NCBI GenBank assembly: GCA_025057905.1
Contig: JANWUX010000002.1
Span: 124,001-188,000, forward strand
Direction of reading: 5' to 3'
DNA length: 64,000 nucleotides
Source of the DNA: Patescibacteria group bacterium
Lineage (GTDB): Bacteria; Patescibacteriota; Microgenomatia; UBA1406; GWC2-37-13
Part shown: piece by piece, positions 1 to 5,962 of the stretch
Position numbering within the stretch: position 1 is the stretch's first letter
How the letters are laid out: each line of letters opens with the position of its first letter
Translations under genes and position numbers: made by a program
The notes under the pieces: model-generated
What the model was told of the DNA's origin: nothing
The model's input: only the letters and a program-made list of their open reading frames with translations
Database searches by the model: none

Positions 1-1128
1 CTGAAAAAGGAGTCGCGAAAGATCATCGAAGCCTCAAGTGGCAACACCATAAAAGCTCTGGCTGGCTTGGCTAACCTCTGCGGCCTGTCATCGGTTAGCG
101 TCACCAATCGAATCCGGGTCCCCGAGATTAAAGAGATTTTGTTGCTAATGGGCGTTGAGATAATCGAAACACCGGGCCGAAGCGCTTGTCTTGATCCAAA
201 CAACCCTGATGACCCTCTTTATGTTATCAATAAAATGATACTCGCTGAGCCGGACAAATACTTTTATCCAAATCAATATCACAACGAAAATAATCCAGCC
301 ATCCATGAGCAGACGACCGCTCAAGAGATCCTCAGAGACTTGGGGTCGATTGATTATCTGTTTGCCTCTTTGGGGACGACGGGATCGTCTTTGGGCCTAT
401 TTCGGGCCTTAAAAAAAGAGAATCCCCGACTAAAGATTTTTGGTATCGCTGCCTCAGCCGAGGACTTTATTCCAGGAATTCGAAGCCAAGGCGAACTTTT
501 AGAAGTGGGCCTGTTTGAACCAGAAATCTATGAGGAGATCATCTATGTCTCCAGTTTGAAGGCTCTTGAAGCAATGAGAGAGTTAATCATTAATTTTGGC
601 ATTTTAGCTGGCCCAAGCAGTGGGTCAGTTTACTTTGCCGCCAAGAATAAACTTTCTTACCTTAACTCGGAGACATCAGGCAAGAAAGCAGTCATTATAA
701 CCTGCGATCGGTTTGAATGGTATCTTTCCTATATCAAAAAAAGAAAGCCAGAATGGTTTGGCTTGAAAAAAAAAGCCCACAGTCCCTATGAGTTTGAGTT
801 TGACGAGAATTTTCCCTATGAAATTGAGTCAGAAAACTTACTTGAATTTATTCAAAAAAATGAGCCACTTGTGATTGATCTTCGATCACCTTTTGCCTTC
901 CAGCTTGGCCACTTGCCCGAGTCAATTAATATTGAAGCTTCTTTTTTTGCGGAGTTGGTTGATGATCGAAGGCCATTTTCTATAAAAAAACCGTTGCTTT
1001 TGGTTTGTGCCATTGGTGTTGTTTCGAAGCGTCTAGCTGCTTACCTGCGAACTCTTGGATATGAAAGCTATTCTCTCAAGTATGGTCTCAATAGTTTTGA
1101 GGGTGATCTGGAAAGCTCTGATCAATGA
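1..1128 (+). CDS. Cysteine synthase-rhodanese fusion (5' end cut by window)
   Basis: The frame is open from base 1, so the N-terminus, including the expected PLP lysine, lies outside the window. The visible part begins with SSGNTIKALA, the substrate-loop motif of cysteine synthase/cystathionine beta-synthase fold-type II PLP enzymes, and GTTGSSLG fits the phosphate-binding turn. The last ~100 residues form a rhodanese-like domain (VIDLRSPFAFQLGHLP, then a candidate catalytic Cys in LVCAIGVVSKRLA). The family joins sulfide to O-acetyl- or O-phosphoserine; the rhodanese domain may deliver or receive persulfide sulfur, which is inference. Its TGA overlaps the ATG of the next gene by 4 bases, indicating translational coupling to a cysteine-desulfurase-like enzyme. 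Confidence 0.85.
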   Translation: MKKESRKIIEASSGNTIKALAGLANLCGLSSVSVTNRIRVPEIKEILLLMGVEIIETPGRSACLDPNNPDDPLYVINKMILAEPDKYFYPNQYHNENNPAIHEQTTAQEILRDLGSIDYLFASLGTTGSSLGLFRALKKENPRLKIFGIAASAEDFIPGIRSQGELLEVGLFEPEIYEEIIYVSSLKALEAMRELIINFGILAGPSSGSVYFAAKNKLSYLNSETSGKKAVIITCDRFEWYLSYIKKRKPEWFGLKKKAHSPYEFEFDENFPYEIESENLLEFIQKNEPLVIDLRSPFAFQLGHLPESINIEASFFAELVDDRRPFSIKKPLLLVCAIGVVSKRLAAYLRTLGYESYSLKYGLNSFEGDLESSDQ

Positions 1129-2384
1129 GTCAAGAGAATAAATATCGTCGTCATTTTCCTCTTTTTGATCATCAGCCAGCGCTTGTCTATCTTAATTCAT
1201 CAGCGGTCAATCCTCTTCCTCGCTTTTCAATTGAGAAATTGACACAGCTTCTTGGCCAGACTGTTCTTCTTGAAAATCGAGATAACGCATTTTTAAGCCA
1301 AAAAATAAATCAAATGATCGAGATAACAAGAAGAAAAATCCTCAACTTTTTTTCTGCCAATGAAAAACTCTGGTTCGTTTTCTTCACCGCCGGCACAACC
1401 GATTGGGTCAATCGACTGGCCCTGTTGATGTTGACAGATTTTTTTAAAGAGGAAGACAAGGTTCTTGTTGGTCAAAATGATCATCAATCAGTTGTTTATC
1501 CTTTTGTTTGGCTTTCGCAATTAGCAAAAGCGAGCAAACCCAAAATGCGAGTTTGGGTTAGATTTTACCTCAATGCTGAAAATGGTTTGATTGACTCTAG
1601 AAATTTTCTCTCTCTTGTTGACAGTCGAACAAGATTGGTCATTCTCAGTCTTGTCAACAACAGCTTTGGTGTCATAAATGATCTTAAATGGTTGATAAAT
1701 CAGACTAAGATAAAAATAAATAACAGCCAAGAGAAGTTACCTCTTTTTTGTATCGATATCAACCAGGCTGTTTTGAGAACAAAGATTGATCTAGAGTCAA
1801 TTGGGGGCGACTGTTATTTTTTTTCGGGGGAAAAGCTCTTGGGACTTGGCGGGGTCGGGGTGGTGATTGTAAGAAAAGATCGACTGAAGACTTTGCCGGT
1901 GATTTTTTCCGGCAGTGGCGGCGGTTTTGAGTTTTCTAACAATGAGCTCTCGATAAAAAACCTCTGGCAGGCTCAGGAGGTAGGAACAAAAAATGTCTTG
2001 GGAATCGTTTCTCTACTTTTTGGGCTCGAGTTCATCGAGAAAATAGGCCTTGAGACTATCATTAAGAAAAATTACCATCTTAGAGATTATTTTCTAGCAA
2101 AACTTCGCCAAGTAAAATTTTTAACTCTTATAAATGAAGACACCTTTGTCGACAGCCAGCGGGTCGGTATTTTTACCTTAACTTTGAATGAAAGAATCTC
2201 TCTTTCGGATCTGGGTTTATTTCTCAAAAAGAACCAGATCCTCGTTCGGCTAGATGATCTTTGTCAGGCACGGCCTGATAAAAATTCATTTCTTCGAGTA
2301 AGTTTAAATTTTTACAACGATTTCGAGGATATTGATAGATTTTTTGAGGTTTTTACCAATTTTTTTGAGAAAGTGGGAGGATAA
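1125..2384 (+). CDS. Class V aminotransferase / cysteine desulfurase-like PLP enzyme
   Basis: A 419-residue fold-type I PLP enzyme of the class V aminotransferase family, which includes SufS/CsdA-like cysteine desulfurases. Visible signatures are an N-terminal YLNSSAVNPLP stretch, FFTAGTTDWVN for cofactor phosphate binding, and CYFFSGEKLLGLGGVGV, where Lys237 should bind PLP. Most relatives have SxHK there; this one has SGEK. The start ATG overlaps the preceding cysteine synthase stop (ATGA), so the pair is one operon, and cysteine made by one enzyme may be the sulfur source for the other. A role as desulfurase rather than another aminotransferase or lyase is inferred from this context. No SUF or ISC scaffold gene is visible. 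Confidence 0.75.
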   Translation: MSQENKYRRHFPLFDHQPALVYLNSSAVNPLPRFSIEKLTQLLGQTVLLENRDNAFLSQKINQMIEITRRKILNFFSANEKLWFVFFTAGTTDWVNRLALLMLTDFFKEEDKVLVGQNDHQSVVYPFVWLSQLAKASKPKMRVWVRFYLNAENGLIDSRNFLSLVDSRTRLVILSLVNNSFGVINDLKWLINQTKIKINNSQEKLPLFCIDINQAVLRTKIDLESIGGDCYFFSGEKLLGLGGVGVVIVRKDRLKTLPVIFSGSGGGFEFSNNELSIKNLWQAQEVGTKNVLGIVSLLFGLEFIEKIGLETIIKKNYHLRDYFLAKLRQVKFLTLINEDTFVDSQRVGIFTLTLNERISLSDLGLFLKKNQILVRLDDLCQARPDKNSFLRVSLNFYNDFEDIDRFFEVFTNFFEKVGG

Positions 2385-2426: not shown

Positions 2427-2435
2427 TGCTAAAAT
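2427..2435 (+). promoter_or_regulatory. Extended -10 promoter for the cobalamin riboswitch
   Basis: TGCTAAAAT is an extended -10 (TGN plus TAAAAT). Transcription would start near 2442, right at the 5' arm of the riboswitch P1 stem that begins at 2444. No clear -35 is seen. Confidence 0.55.
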
Positions 2436-2443
2436 AAAAGTTG

Positions 2444-2607
2444 AAAAAGCTTGATTTCAGTCACTCTCCGTTCACTCTGGGGGGGAAGACTGGTCCTAGG
2501 AGACTGGGATTACTGGGAACACCGGTGAAAATCCGGGGCTGTGCCGCAGCGGTGATTTCAACCCGCAGTTAAGGTTGAGAAAGCCCGAAGACCGATCAAG
2601 CTTTTTT
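2444..2607 (+). promoter_or_regulatory. Cobalamin (B12) riboswitch
   Basis: The conserved core is present: GGGAA followed by the GGTGAAAATCC element near 2524-2534, then GGGGCTGTGCCGCAGCGGTGA, and downstream GCCCGAAGACC at 2583-2593. A perfect 12-bp P1 stem closes it (AAAAAGCTTGAT at 2444-2455 with ATCAAGCTTTTT at 2595-2606). The class is a known adenosyl-/hydroxo-cobalamin sensor that usually represses the downstream gene when B12 is bound. Here the next start codon is at 2626, only 19 nt after P1, so translational control or a P1-linked T-run attenuator are both possible. Confidence 0.92.
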
Positions 2608-2628
2608 CCCCGAGCAGGGAGAGTAATG
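2606..2628 (+). promoter_or_regulatory. Ribosome-binding site within a short hairpin
   Basis: GGGAGAG lies 3-9 nt before ATG 2626. Its GGGAG can pair with TTCCC at 2606-2610 across a 6-nt loop, so the site could be hidden or exposed depending on the adjacent P1 stem. It is one of the few clear Shine-Dalgarno-like sites in this window. Confidence 0.5.
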
Positions 2629-3690
2629 ATTAGTGTTGCCGAGTCACTAGCTCGGTTTGGCCTTAATCCTGAAGAAAATTTCTACTCTAGAGAGGCTCTT
2701 GAGAAGCAAATCGAGGCATATTTTAACCATGTGGTATGTGACTGCCCAGTTTCCAATAAGTACGTCTACTGTGTCAGGTATCAAGAAAATGATCTAAAAA
2801 TCATAACTGAAAATCATCAAGAGCTCTATCTTGATGAGGAAGAAAGAGGTGGCCTTGCCAAAGAGGGAACGCTTAAAGCGGTTTCAGAAGCCCTCAAACA
2901 CCCGAGAAAAATTGTTTTTCTTTACAGCCCGCCCGGCCCGGTGGCTTTTGAAAAAGGGACAAAGTATGATAAAGTGCCTCCTTACACCTCAGGCCAGCTA
3001 TATCTGATGATCTCCAACAATCCCGACCAGGTTGAGGCTTTGGCCATCTCCATTTCTGAGGAGGGTGAAGCTAAGTTTCTAAAGGAGATTGATATGAAAA
3101 TTTTTCAAGGTGAAGATAAGATTGGAAAAATTAAGTATTACCTGTCTAATCCCTTTGTAACTAACATGAGTCTTGACCAATTACTTGAAAAATTTGCCAT
3201 TATCTCAAAAGAAGAAGATTTTATTGTTTATCAAAATGTGCATGGGCATAAGTTTTCTCTCTCTCGTGTCGTTCAACTTGTAAAAAAGGGATGGAAGAGA
3301 CAAATAAAGCCTATTCCTTCAGTTAATGACCTTGTACCTCAAGGTAAAATCAAACCTTTTTTTGCTTATCTTAAGGCCCTTGCAAGTTTTTTTCCTCAGG
3401 GTCAATCTTCTCTGAGACTTGCCGGCAGTTGTGGTGGTGGGGAGGTTACGTGGAATCAGATTAGTTCCTTACTTGATTCATTCACCAAGGTTGCGTTTGC
3501 TCCTCTTTCCCCTTTCTATCGAGCAAAAGATTTTTTTCTACCTTATTTCTCTGTGGCTGATTCAGATGAGTATGGTCCGTTAAATTTTGAGTGTCCTCAT
3601 TGTCTAAGTGAGGTCAGGCGGCCGAGACATCAACTTCTTGAAAGCTGTCCCTATTGCAACGGCGATCTTCGTTGTGGAAGCAGTGAGTAA
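2626..3690 (+). CDS. Unknown zinc-ribbon protein under B12 riboswitch control
   Basis: About 354 residues, with no recognised family. The start is ATG 2626, preceded by GGGAGAG; an upstream in-frame TTG at 2575 lies inside the riboswitch and was not chosen. The body has no obvious membrane segment or signal peptide. Two features are visible: a central YSPPGPVAF...SGQLYLMI stretch, and a C-terminal four-cysteine zinc ribbon (CPHC near residue 325 and CPYC about 20 residues later). An early CDC pair is also present. The riboswitch ties expression to cobalamin, so a B12-independent substitute enzyme, B12 uptake or salvage are all conceivable; none is shown by sequence. Its 3' end overlaps pus10 on the other strand by 77 bases. 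Confidence 0.75.
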   Translation: MISVAESLARFGLNPEENFYSREALEKQIEAYFNHVVCDCPVSNKYVYCVRYQENDLKIITENHQELYLDEEERGGLAKEGTLKAVSEALKHPRKIVFLYSPPGPVAFEKGTKYDKVPPYTSGQLYLMISNNPDQVEALAISISEEGEAKFLKEIDMKIFQGEDKIGKIKYYLSNPFVTNMSLDQLLEKFAIISKEEDFIVYQNVHGHKFSLSRVVQLVKKGWKRQIKPIPSVNDLVPQGKIKPFFAYLKALASFFPQGQSSLRLAGSCGGGEVTWNQISSLLDSFTKVAFAPLSPFYRAKDFFLPYFSVADSDEYGPLNFECPHCLSEVRRPRHQLLESCPYCNGDLRCGSSE

Positions 3691-4627
3691 AGTTATTGTC
3701 AGGAAAATTAACTTTGGTGACAACTAGCTTCTCGACTTGGCACTTGGTATTCAAAAACTCAGAGAGGGAGGGTTGGGTTCGGCCGTTGTCACCGTTTATC
3801 AGCTCTTTAATATAGGTCCCGGCCTGAGCCTTAATTTCAATCACTGGCTTTTGGGAGTCAAAGCTGATAATCCGGGCATAGTATATCTCCTTTTTTCTCT
3901 CAAGATTTGCTCGCCGGCGAAGAACTCTTGTCGGTGTTTTTTGGCTGATTATGATACCGGACAGTTTTTGACAAGCTTTTTCTAGACTCTCCTTGTCGAT
4001 TGGTGTTTCAGTTTTTACAGTAGCTTGATAAACTTTATCGGGAGAGGCGAACTTGACTTGTTTAATCTTCTTCTTGGAACAAAACTCAAGGCGACTGACT
4101 CTGACATATTGAGAGGTTTGATTAATCGCTTTGGTAATCTCTTCAAGATCAAAGGTACGTTTCTTTGGATTTTTTATCTCAATGACAAAAGGTCTTCCTT
4201 GACCAACGTTCACGACGTCAATGTCTTCTCGGCCGCAGCCATGAAAAGAATGATCCTCTCCCCTACTCTTCTTTAGAATGACCTCGCCGATTTCTTCCTG
4301 AACTGAGGTCAAGTATCTTTTTTTGTGCCAGCGTGTTTGAGGGATTCCAGCAGTAATCTTTTGGTAATAGCCAAAAAGATATACTGGCCTAACTCGAAGA
4401 GTTAACTCTTCTTTTTCAAGATCGATCTCAACATGTATCTCTGGTTCCTTGTAGTCAACTCTTTTTCCCAGTTTAAGCTCAGTTATCTTTCCAAGAGTTG
4501 TTTTCCAGTTCTTTTTCTCTTCCGGCGAGAACTTACCTTTTATCCCCAAAAGAAAGGTAGTAAACTCAAACTCTTTCAGCCTGTTAACGATCTTTTCTGA
4601 CAGCCTCTCAATTTTCTCTTCATTCAT
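3614..4627 (-). CDS. pus10: tRNA pseudouridine synthase Pus10
   Basis: About 337 residues matching the archaeal/eukaryotic Pus10 family, which makes pseudouridine in the tRNA T arm (positions 54/55). Diagnostic blocks are FTTFLLG, YQKITAGIPQTRW, the catalytic FHGCGREDIDV followed by GQGRPFVIEI (Asp135 of the RED triplet is the expected nucleophile), and C-terminal AGTYIKELINGDNGRT. Archaeal homologues carry an N-terminal zinc domain with CxxC pairs; that part is absent, so this is a shortened form. ATG 4627 is chosen because the longer in-frame extension runs into tRNA-Leu. The start lies 9 nt after that tRNA, so both should share a transcript. Pus10 is rare in bacteria, suggesting transfer. 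Confidence 0.88.
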   Translation of the reverse strand: MNEEKIERLSEKIVNRLKEFEFTTFLLGIKGKFSPEEKKNWKTTLGKITELKLGKRVDYKEPEIHVEIDLEKEELTLRVRPVYLFGYYQKITAGIPQTRWHKKRYLTSVQEEIGEVILKKSRGEDHSFHGCGREDIDVVNVGQGRPFVIEIKNPKKRTFDLEEITKAINQTSQYVRVSRLEFCSKKKIKQVKFASPDKVYQATVKTETPIDKESLEKACQKLSGIIISQKTPTRVLRRRANLERKKEIYYARIISFDSQKPVIEIKAQAGTYIKELINGDNGRTQPSLSEFLNTKCQVEKLVVTKVNFPDNNFTHCFHNEDRRCNRDSFQEVDVSAA

Positions 4628-4636
4628 TAGTAGAGG

Positions 4637-4718
4637 TGCCGCAGAGAGGATTTGAACCTCTACGGGTTTACCCACACGGTTCTAAGCCGTGCCTGTCTGC
4701 CAATTCCAGCACTGCGGC
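4637..4718 (-). tRNA. tRNA-Leu (UAG anticodon)
   Basis: An 82-nt cloverleaf with a long variable arm. Acceptor strands GCCGCAG and CTGCGGC pair, the anticodon stem is CACGG/CCGTG with loop CTTAGAA (anticodon TAG), and the T arm reads GAGGTTCAAATCCTC. The discriminator is A; the genome continues CCT, so CCA is not fully encoded and must be completed by a CCA-adding enzyme. A TAAAAT box at 4732-4727 lies 8 nt upstream. The pus10 start codon follows 9 nt downstream. Confidence 0.95.
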
Positions 4719-4778
4719 GTTAATTTATTTTATTTTTATATATTATAATAATCCTTTTAAAATTATCTTTTATATTTA

Positions 4779-5248
4779 TTGTTATTAAAATTAACGAGAG
4801 ACTATCTTATAAAAAAGAATAACGGTTTCGTCAAATTTTATTTTTCCTACTTTAAAAGTGTCACTTTTGAATTAGTGATGGTTATTATTAGTTTTTTTTT
4901 TAAATTTATTTCTTTTAATTTTCTTGGAGACACTATAAATAATTTTCTTATTTTTATCGAAATTATTTTTATTCAATTGTTCAAAACTTATTTAGTTTTA
5001 AAATTAATTCTTGTTTGGATTTATAAAAAGTATCATAAGAAGTGACGAAATTGTGATTAGGAAGGGATTAATAAATTCGAAAGAAACGACTTATGAAATA
5101 TCCAATCTTCAATCAATGATTATCAATCAGGGGTTATTTTGGAAAAATTTTTAATTTTGGGACGATCAGGTTATATAATCCAGTTTTAAAATATGAGATT
5201 TTTATTGAATATATTCTTAAACCAGAATTTTATGGTGAATTTATTTAA
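4779..5248 (+). pseudogene. Frameshifted bPH2-type (PH-domain) membrane protein
   Basis: The first frame encodes two hydrophobic helices (around VMVIISFFFKFISF and FLIFIEIIFIQLF) ending near IYKK. Removing one A from the A5 run at 5025-5029 and one T from the T5 run at 5148-5152 continues the protein through IIRSDEIVIRKGLINSK, YEISNLQSMIINQGLFWKN and NFGTIRLYNPVLKYEIF to a TAA at 5246-5248. Two membrane helices followed by a rigid beta-rich domain with RxGL, an IQS motif and FGT matches bacterial PH (bPH2/DUF304) proteins. As written it cannot be made in one frame. Either it is decaying or both indels are homopolymer errors. Confidence 0.6.
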
Positions 5249-5314
5249 AAAAAAAGAGCCAAAGTCCCTTTTATCATAAAAAAAGTAACCAAAGAGAACT
5301 TTAAAAGATAAAAG

Positions 5315-5962
5315 CTATTTTTTTAAGAAGTTTGCAACTGTCCAGAAACCAAAAATAAAACCACCAATATGGGCAAACCAGGCAATCCCGCCTTGATTGA
5401 TATCGAAAGTGACAAGCGAGCCAACTCCGGAAAAAAGCTGTATCAAAAACCAATAACCTAAAAAAAACCAAGCTGGTAGATAGATAATCTGAAAAAAACC
5501 AAAAAAAGGCACCAGAGCTTCAATCTTTGATCGATTAAAAAGAACAAAGTAAGCCCCGGTTACCCCAGAGATTGCTCCTGAGGCCCCAATCATTGGAATT
5601 TCACTTCCGGGATTAAAGCTATACTGAAAAAGAACGGAAAAACAGCCAGCTAAAAGATAAAAGACTAGATACTTTAGATGACCAAGTCGGTCTTCAACAT
5701 TGTCGCCAAAGATATGAAGAAACCAGAGATTCGAGGCAATATGAAAAAGGCTACCATGAAGAAAGATTGAGTAAAAAATGAACTGATAGGATGAAAGTTC
5801 AAGAAAGTTAAACTGAGCCGGGATAAAGCCGTACTGGTAAATAAACTCTTCAAAGTCAGGGCTAGCAAGTTGTCTAATAAACACCAGAATGTTAGCAAAA
5901 ATGATGAGGTAATTAATAAGAGGGAAACTTCTTGTCCTGTTAATATCTCTTAGGGGAAGCAT
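5315..5962 (-). CDS. Rhomboid family intramembrane serine protease
   Basis: A 215-residue polytopic membrane protein with the rhomboid catalytic dyad: Ser128 in GASGAISG and His198 in AHIGGFIFGF. The supporting HxxxN motif (His74-Asn78 in HIASN) and the loop sequence WFLHIFGDNVEDRLG are also typical. It cleaves transmembrane substrates within the bilayer; the substrate here is unknown. ATG 5962 is preferred over an upstream TTG because a TATAAT box ends 6 nt before it, placing transcription start essentially on the ATG. It stands alone, flanked by a decayed gene and tRNA-Ser. Confidence 0.93.
   Translation of the reverse strand: MLPLRDINRTRSFPLINYLIIFANILVFIRQLASPDFEEFIYQYGFIPAQFNFLELSSYQFIFYSIFLHGSLFHIASNLWFLHIFGDNVEDRLGHLKYLVFYLLAGCFSVLFQYSFNPGSEIPMIGASGAISGVTGAYFVLFNRSKIEALVPFFGFFQIIYLPAWFFLGYWFLIQLFSGVGSLVTFDINQGGIAWFAHIGGFIFGFWTVANFLKK

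Follow-up and report, generated by a model that had tools for sequence, protein, structure and literature searches.

Riboswitches name the metabolite to which a gene responds, and polymorphic proteins, polymorphic toxins for example, carry exchangeable C-terminal modules. In translational corrinoid riboswitches, the helix P13, stabilized by a kissing loop between L5 and L13, promotes a hairpin at the ribosome-binding site (RBS; PMC10653944). Here we describe a locus in a 64,000-nucleotide stretch of a Patescibacteria genome (Microgenomatia; assembly GCA_025057905.1, contig JANWUX010000002.1, positions 124,001 to 188,000; hereafter the window, numbered from its first letter), where a leader of the same layout, with the RBS hairpin at P13, precedes the gene of a zinc-ribbon protein that we call X. 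In reduced bacteria of a whole class, this type of riboswitch picks out one protein family, which has no name and evolves fast. As far as the searched libraries and the literature show, the regulated family and the exchange of its ribbon are new, and nothing was found in the literature linking cobalamin riboswitches to the Candidate Phyla Radiation (CPR)/Patescibacteria. In the reading that we favour, with a probability of about 0.6, a translational OFF switch would let X be made when corrinoid is short, and X would probably serve to acquire corrinoid or take part in a starvation response linked to the ribonucleotide reductase (RNR) NrdJ.

A cobalamin riboswitch with an RBS hairpin

The Rfam cobalamin family RF00174 matches the window at 2474-2614, on the forward strand like all other parts of the locus. 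The match spans the full model (1-189, cmscan) and scores 50.0 bits (gathering score 31.5), with an E-value of 1.7e-9 in the 64-kb window; it is the sole RF00174 copy in the 783-kb, 92% complete genome. A sequence-only reading of the window had described a riboswitch core with a perfect 12-bp P1, an extended -10 element at its 5' end and an RBS placed in a hairpin, and the covariance-model search bears out the core. P1 is as described: AAAAAGCTTGAT at 2444-2455 is perfectly complementary to ATCAAGCTTTTT at 2595-2606, the helix has 13 bp (arms 2443-2455 and 2595-2607) when a G-U pair at 2443 is counted, and the minimum-free-energy fold of the leader recovers it (z = -2.3). The extended -10-like TGCTAAAAT stands where it had been placed (2427-2435, 7 nt 5' of P1), with no -35 element upstream and no scored promoter, and the promoter remains a pattern. 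A start of the locus at 2427 likewise holds for this promoter-like element and not for the aptamer, as the Rfam match begins at 2474.

At the end of the leader, CCC at 2608-2610 pairs with GGG at 2617-2619 in a P13-like hairpin (CCC-CGAGCA-GGG, 2608-2619), the predicted expression platform, whose 3' arm carries the Shine-Dalgarno (SD)-like AGGGAG (2616-2621) that precedes the ATG at 2626. The string CCCCG[A/T/C]GCAGGG before the ATG is nearly invariant in about 35 related leaders, and the SD hairpin is therefore more than chance, in agreement with the earlier proposal.

The P5 hairpin of the aptamer (CCGG...CCGG, 2522-2536) shows strong covariation in the relatives. Over 28 distinct P5 regions, 99.3% of cells are standard pairs, with 55 double compensations; none of 500 shuffles reached the observed pairing, and slid controls were 26-44% paired. 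The covariation claim covers P5 only, an automatic search for P1 pairing in the relatives being unreliable. The riboswitch is under selection for its structure and belongs to a known class, and some relatives have RF01689 or RF01482 matches alongside the RF00174 class.

Protein X and its family

X (2626-3690, 354 aa) consists of an N-domain with ERGG, YSPPGP and GQLY motifs, a GSCGG motif and a C-terminal zinc ribbon (3592-3675). Cys 323, 326, 341 and 344 form the two CxxC knuckles, 10-25 residues apart, by which a zinc ribbon is recognized, and Cys 350 is an additional cysteine. The sequence-only reading had found that this roughly 354-residue ribbon protein fits no B12 synthesis, transport or B12-dependent enzyme family known to it. 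Pfam and NCBIfam gave no match above cut-off, with all zinc-ribbon profile scores under the curated values, and candidate families in these two libraries, PHROGs and PADLOC were rejected on sub-threshold or weak matches, mostly to zinc ribbons. A sequence search of the PDB returned essentially ribbon matches only (e.g. eL43, E = 0.006). X matches neither the B12-binding profile PF02310 nor RNR families, NrdJ being a separate gene on contig C4, and no signal peptide or transmembrane segment was seen by eye in the window copy. A viral origin was discarded, as one search pattern found no relatives in viral contigs. With dN/dS values of 0.10-0.17 (four usable pairs), X is a real gene under purifying selection.

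Structure prediction and a fold search, proposed as checks by the earlier reading, gave a confident N-domain (AlphaFold pLDDT 84, pTM 0.82) and no significant fold match: nothing was found at E <= 0.001 when full-length X and the N-domain were compared with the PDB, or full-length X with viral structures. The full-length model, built from seven sequences only, is weaker (pLDDT 73.9, pTM 0.67). In the model, the conserved residues R74, S101, P102, G104, Y120, G123 and Q124 lie close to helix 73-91 and to strands 97-101 and 122-132, where they may mark a ligand site.

The N-domain leans weakly towards PAS/GAF/CACHE sensor domains, a result that is not significant (best E = 0.022) and is not relied on here. 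Such leanings, in a soluble-looking protein that has a zinc ribbon and adjoins NrdR-NrdJ-PduO in some genomes, would suit a regulator that binds nucleic acid or protein through its ribbon and adjusts NrdJ, replication or the expression of a type IV secretion system (T4SS) at low adenosylcobalamin (AdoCbl). The insignificance of the fold matches makes a regulator unlikely, as do the extreme divergence of X and the exchange of its ribbon, which would be unusual if the targets were conserved.

A conserved riboswitch-gene pair

A role for X in corrinoid scarcity draws on the constancy of the pair. Homologues of X occur in 25 of 57 relatives (own genome counted), and 23 of the 25 have a cobalamin riboswitch match immediately upstream, the weakest at 21 bits and below the cut-off. 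Of the two exceptions, G017 is truncated where its contig ends, and G005 retains the hairpin together with a degenerate core. The riboswitch also precedes X in all six named records, which are loci from a contig scan with a narrower X alignment. When 280 genomes of the class were searched with a profile, X was found in 28. Fourteen copies were newly seen, 13 of them with an upstream riboswitch (two below the family cut-off); the remaining copy, which still has the hairpin, begins at the edge of its contig. RF00174 itself is found in 97 of the 280 genomes, nearly always as a single copy, and most of the listed open reading frames (ORFs) behind it encode proteins of 290-480 aa that combine 'SPP'-type and 'GSCG/GSCP' motifs with a zinc ribbon at the C-terminus. 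Eight very divergent subgroups of X were joined by profile-profile comparison, with some of the links confined to the ribbon or to a short segment. In families f9 and f36, the long proteins that follow the riboswitch had no homology to X when tested. This retention of the riboswitch by the homologues, together with the linkage to NrdJ and PduO described below, supports the earlier suggestion of a new B12-related protein. The spread of the pair through the class, the exchangeable ribbon and the T4SS neighbourhood were beyond the reach of that sequence-only reading.

Apart from the riboswitch-X unit, where their DNA is 86% identical, two loci from different families, L048 (f1) and L124 (f18), have little in common. 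The unit was apparently transferred whole from family to family, binning errors being possible. Identity of this kind between mostly different flanks, and the strong X homologues in family f25, would be expected of a mobile or selfish cassette that has no role in B12 metabolism and uses the riboswitch only to time its expression. We consider such a cassette very improbable: there is nearly always one copy per genome, the unit is repeatedly placed next to NrdJ/PduO, the gene is under purifying selection, and no mobility gene was noticed.

The adenosylcobalamin context

The neighbours of the pair also bear on a response to corrinoid shortage. The host genome has one NrdJ, a class II AdoCbl-dependent RNR, beside the adenosyltransferase PduO and NrdR on another contig; neither NrdD nor the B12-binding domain PF02310 was found in this genome, and NrdJ is the only RNR found in the host. 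Among the 57 relatives, 52 have NrdJ and 48 have PduO. The order NrdJ-PduO-riboswitch-X is recurrent, often with NrdR in front: it is present at loci L052, L065, L081, L085, L192, L193 and L206, and L065, L081 and L085 are NrdR-NrdJ-PduO-riboswitch-X operons. DNA precursor synthesis in these bacteria depends on AdoCbl, which the cells presumably do not make (no search for biosynthesis genes was made), and the bacteria are probably symbiotic or episymbiotic and host-dependent. The NrdJ of G008, G014, G017, G022 and G043 is matched in several pieces inside one long frame of 857-1594 aa, which suggests inteins.

Genes for DUF4430 and DUF6580 proteins often follow PduO, and the two are a candidate corrinoid-binding and membrane transport pair; such pairs stand behind PduO at L079 (12795-13696) and L080 (15014-15915). 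DUF4430 proteins lie behind the riboswitch in G008, G065 and G130, and in G056 the first gene behind it encodes an unrelated protein of 657 aa, after which come DUF4430 and DUF6580. At L095 of G008 (3573-5478, reverse strand), the riboswitch is followed by the DUF4430 protein and then by an alpha-alpha-toroid (prenyltransferase/cyclase-like) protein, an arrangement reminiscent of transcobalamin-type domains. The gene metE lies behind the riboswitch at L027, a small contig that is possibly a contaminant. In G033 a second cobalamin riboswitch (L096, 1603-4876; 20.9 bits, below the cut-off) stands before a decayed class I RNR, of which the ATP-cone was identified by Pfam and an NrdB-like ORF by eye. 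These other targets (metE, the decayed class I RNR and DUF4430) fit B12 shortage.

Classical cobalamin riboswitch logic, as seen with metE and the nrdAB remnant of G033, and the status of NrdJ as the sole RNR found would also accommodate a B12-sparing enzyme that stands in for some AdoCbl-dependent function at low B12, a substitute that the sequence-only reading had entertained. This part of that reading was not confirmed: no catalytic family was found, RNR-like domains are absent, and the proteins, at 350-450 aa, carry no RNR, radical-SAM or other enzyme signature. X is moreover poorly conserved beyond a few motifs, whereas a replacement enzyme is expected to be well conserved, and we judge a sparing enzyme improbable.

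Ribbon exchange and type IV secretion genes

Ribbons are shared at E < 1e-4 by 71 cross-subgroup pairs (66 proteins), and 68 of the 71 are without body similarity; one example has 84% identity over 37 aa and no body match. Of 308 pairs whose bodies are close relatives (E < 1e-15), 257 have unrelated tails. The tail in this count is a fixed 60 aa, and some cases may come from displaced ribbon boundaries or from an extended C-terminus, as in L112; in most of the listed examples one ribbon has simply replaced another. The ribbon of X is modular and is exchanged between bodies. A search of the 57 genomes with ribbon type 1 found the X copies and two marginal matches (G041 and G043, E about 0.004), both in an unrelated ORF beside the riboswitch, and a search of the 280 genomes with ribbon type 5 found X loci only. 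The idea of a general CPR module was dropped for these two types, the searches being essentially X-specific. Directly behind X at L088 (G042), a stand-alone zinc-ribbon ORF (2646-2778) resembles a spare C-terminal module. Ribbon exchange is a second puzzle, as modular, diversifying evolution is unexpected in a plain vitamin-response gene.

In 17 of 28 riboswitch regions, from several families, a homologue of a coupling protein, VirB4 or PrgI is encoded no more than 8 kb away (a raw count that ignores kinship between genomes). Divergent PrgI-VirB4 clusters adjoin X in f5, and a small protein and a coupling protein lie downstream in f9, f12, f24 and f25. X might be a polymorphic factor that is made in B12 starvation, is delivered by or docks on a T4SS-like machine as substrate or adaptor, and acts where the cell meets a partner cell, the ribbon setting targeting or recognition. 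The differing arrangements of the secretion genes around X, the swapping of an essentially X-specific ribbon between unrelated bodies, the apparent transfer of the whole riboswitch-X unit and the lack of a visible signal peptide or transmembrane segment would all agree with such a factor. Some of the 17 regions, however, carry behind the riboswitch a long protein that is not homologous, or not demonstrated to be homologous, to X (f9, f36, f12, G131), the neighbourhood may be gene order inherited within families, and no T4SS homologue was found in the 64-kb window. The hint of export through the T4SS comes from gene neighbourhoods. We rate this factor as doubtful, on a par with the regulator. 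It is a shade less probable still that X, as a polymorphic factor induced by B12 starvation and with the ribbon as its specificity module, works with a T4SS-like machine to obtain corrinoid (or deoxynucleoside triphosphates) from partner cells.

A proposed response to corrinoid scarcity

The explanation that we prefer remains synthesis of X when corrinoid is scarce. We infer AdoCbl (or another corrinoid) as the ligand; its binding would let P13 form and bury the SD sequence, and X would be translated under scarcity. X would be a Microgenomates-specific protein serving cells whose only RNR is the AdoCbl-dependent NrdJ. It would most likely act in the corrinoid-shortage response, obtaining or handling external corrinoid, and its partners in this may be the nearby T4SS genes and the DUF4430 and DUF6580 proteins. 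Judged by the neighbours of X, corrinoid acquisition or an NrdJ-linked starvation response is the most economical reading.

Several points weigh against this explanation. Near-complete relatives such as G016 and G023 have NrdJ and PduO yet lack X, which is therefore accessory and dispensable for B12 use. Loop-loop complementarity between L5 and L13 is not established in the leader, where the P13/RBS hairpin is near-invariant, and X is without a family, a significant fold match or a recognizable corrinoid-binding motif. Because a few corrinoid riboswitches activate (PMC10653944), the regulatory sign is something we only infer. Once the function of X is found, direct tests of how such cells withstand B12 shortage would become possible.

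Other genes near the riboswitch

Directly upstream of the riboswitch, the window (1-2384, forward strand) encodes a cysteine synthase-like pyridoxal-phosphate enzyme fused to a rhodanese domain, which overlaps a SufS-type cysteine desulfurase-like gene. On the reverse strand, 3614-4675 encodes an archaeal/eukaryal-type tRNA pseudouridine synthase Pus10 (TIGR01213, 297.7 bits, cut-off 200), and the neighbourhood in G001 seems to hold Pus10 too (L060, 4517-5500, reverse strand, by eye). A Roizmanbacteria record has a thiamine pyrophosphate riboswitch (L064, 6719-6828).

Comparison with known systems

X resembles polymorphic proteins such as polymorphic toxins in that its C-terminal module is swapped independently of the body. 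It differs from them in having a zinc ribbon of 37-55 aa as its module and bodies that diverge too; no toxin domain or immunity gene was identified for X, and membership among such proteins is not claimed. At the B12 locus, the DUF4430 and DUF6580 proteins accompany NrdJ-PduO and sometimes lie behind the same riboswitch, but a sequence relation to X was not seen. The riboswitch-controlled B12-independent isozymes share the regulatory logic and the lineages, the riboswitch standing before metE (L027) and the decayed class I RNR (L096), and X resembles neither MetE nor NrdAB. In its core, B12 box, P5, RBS hairpin at the P13 position and score above the cut-off, the riboswitch is like the rest of the RF00174 class, whereas X is none of the known genes for B12 synthesis, transport or B12-independent isozymes, and the pairing of the two points to a new, unexplained response to B12 shortage.
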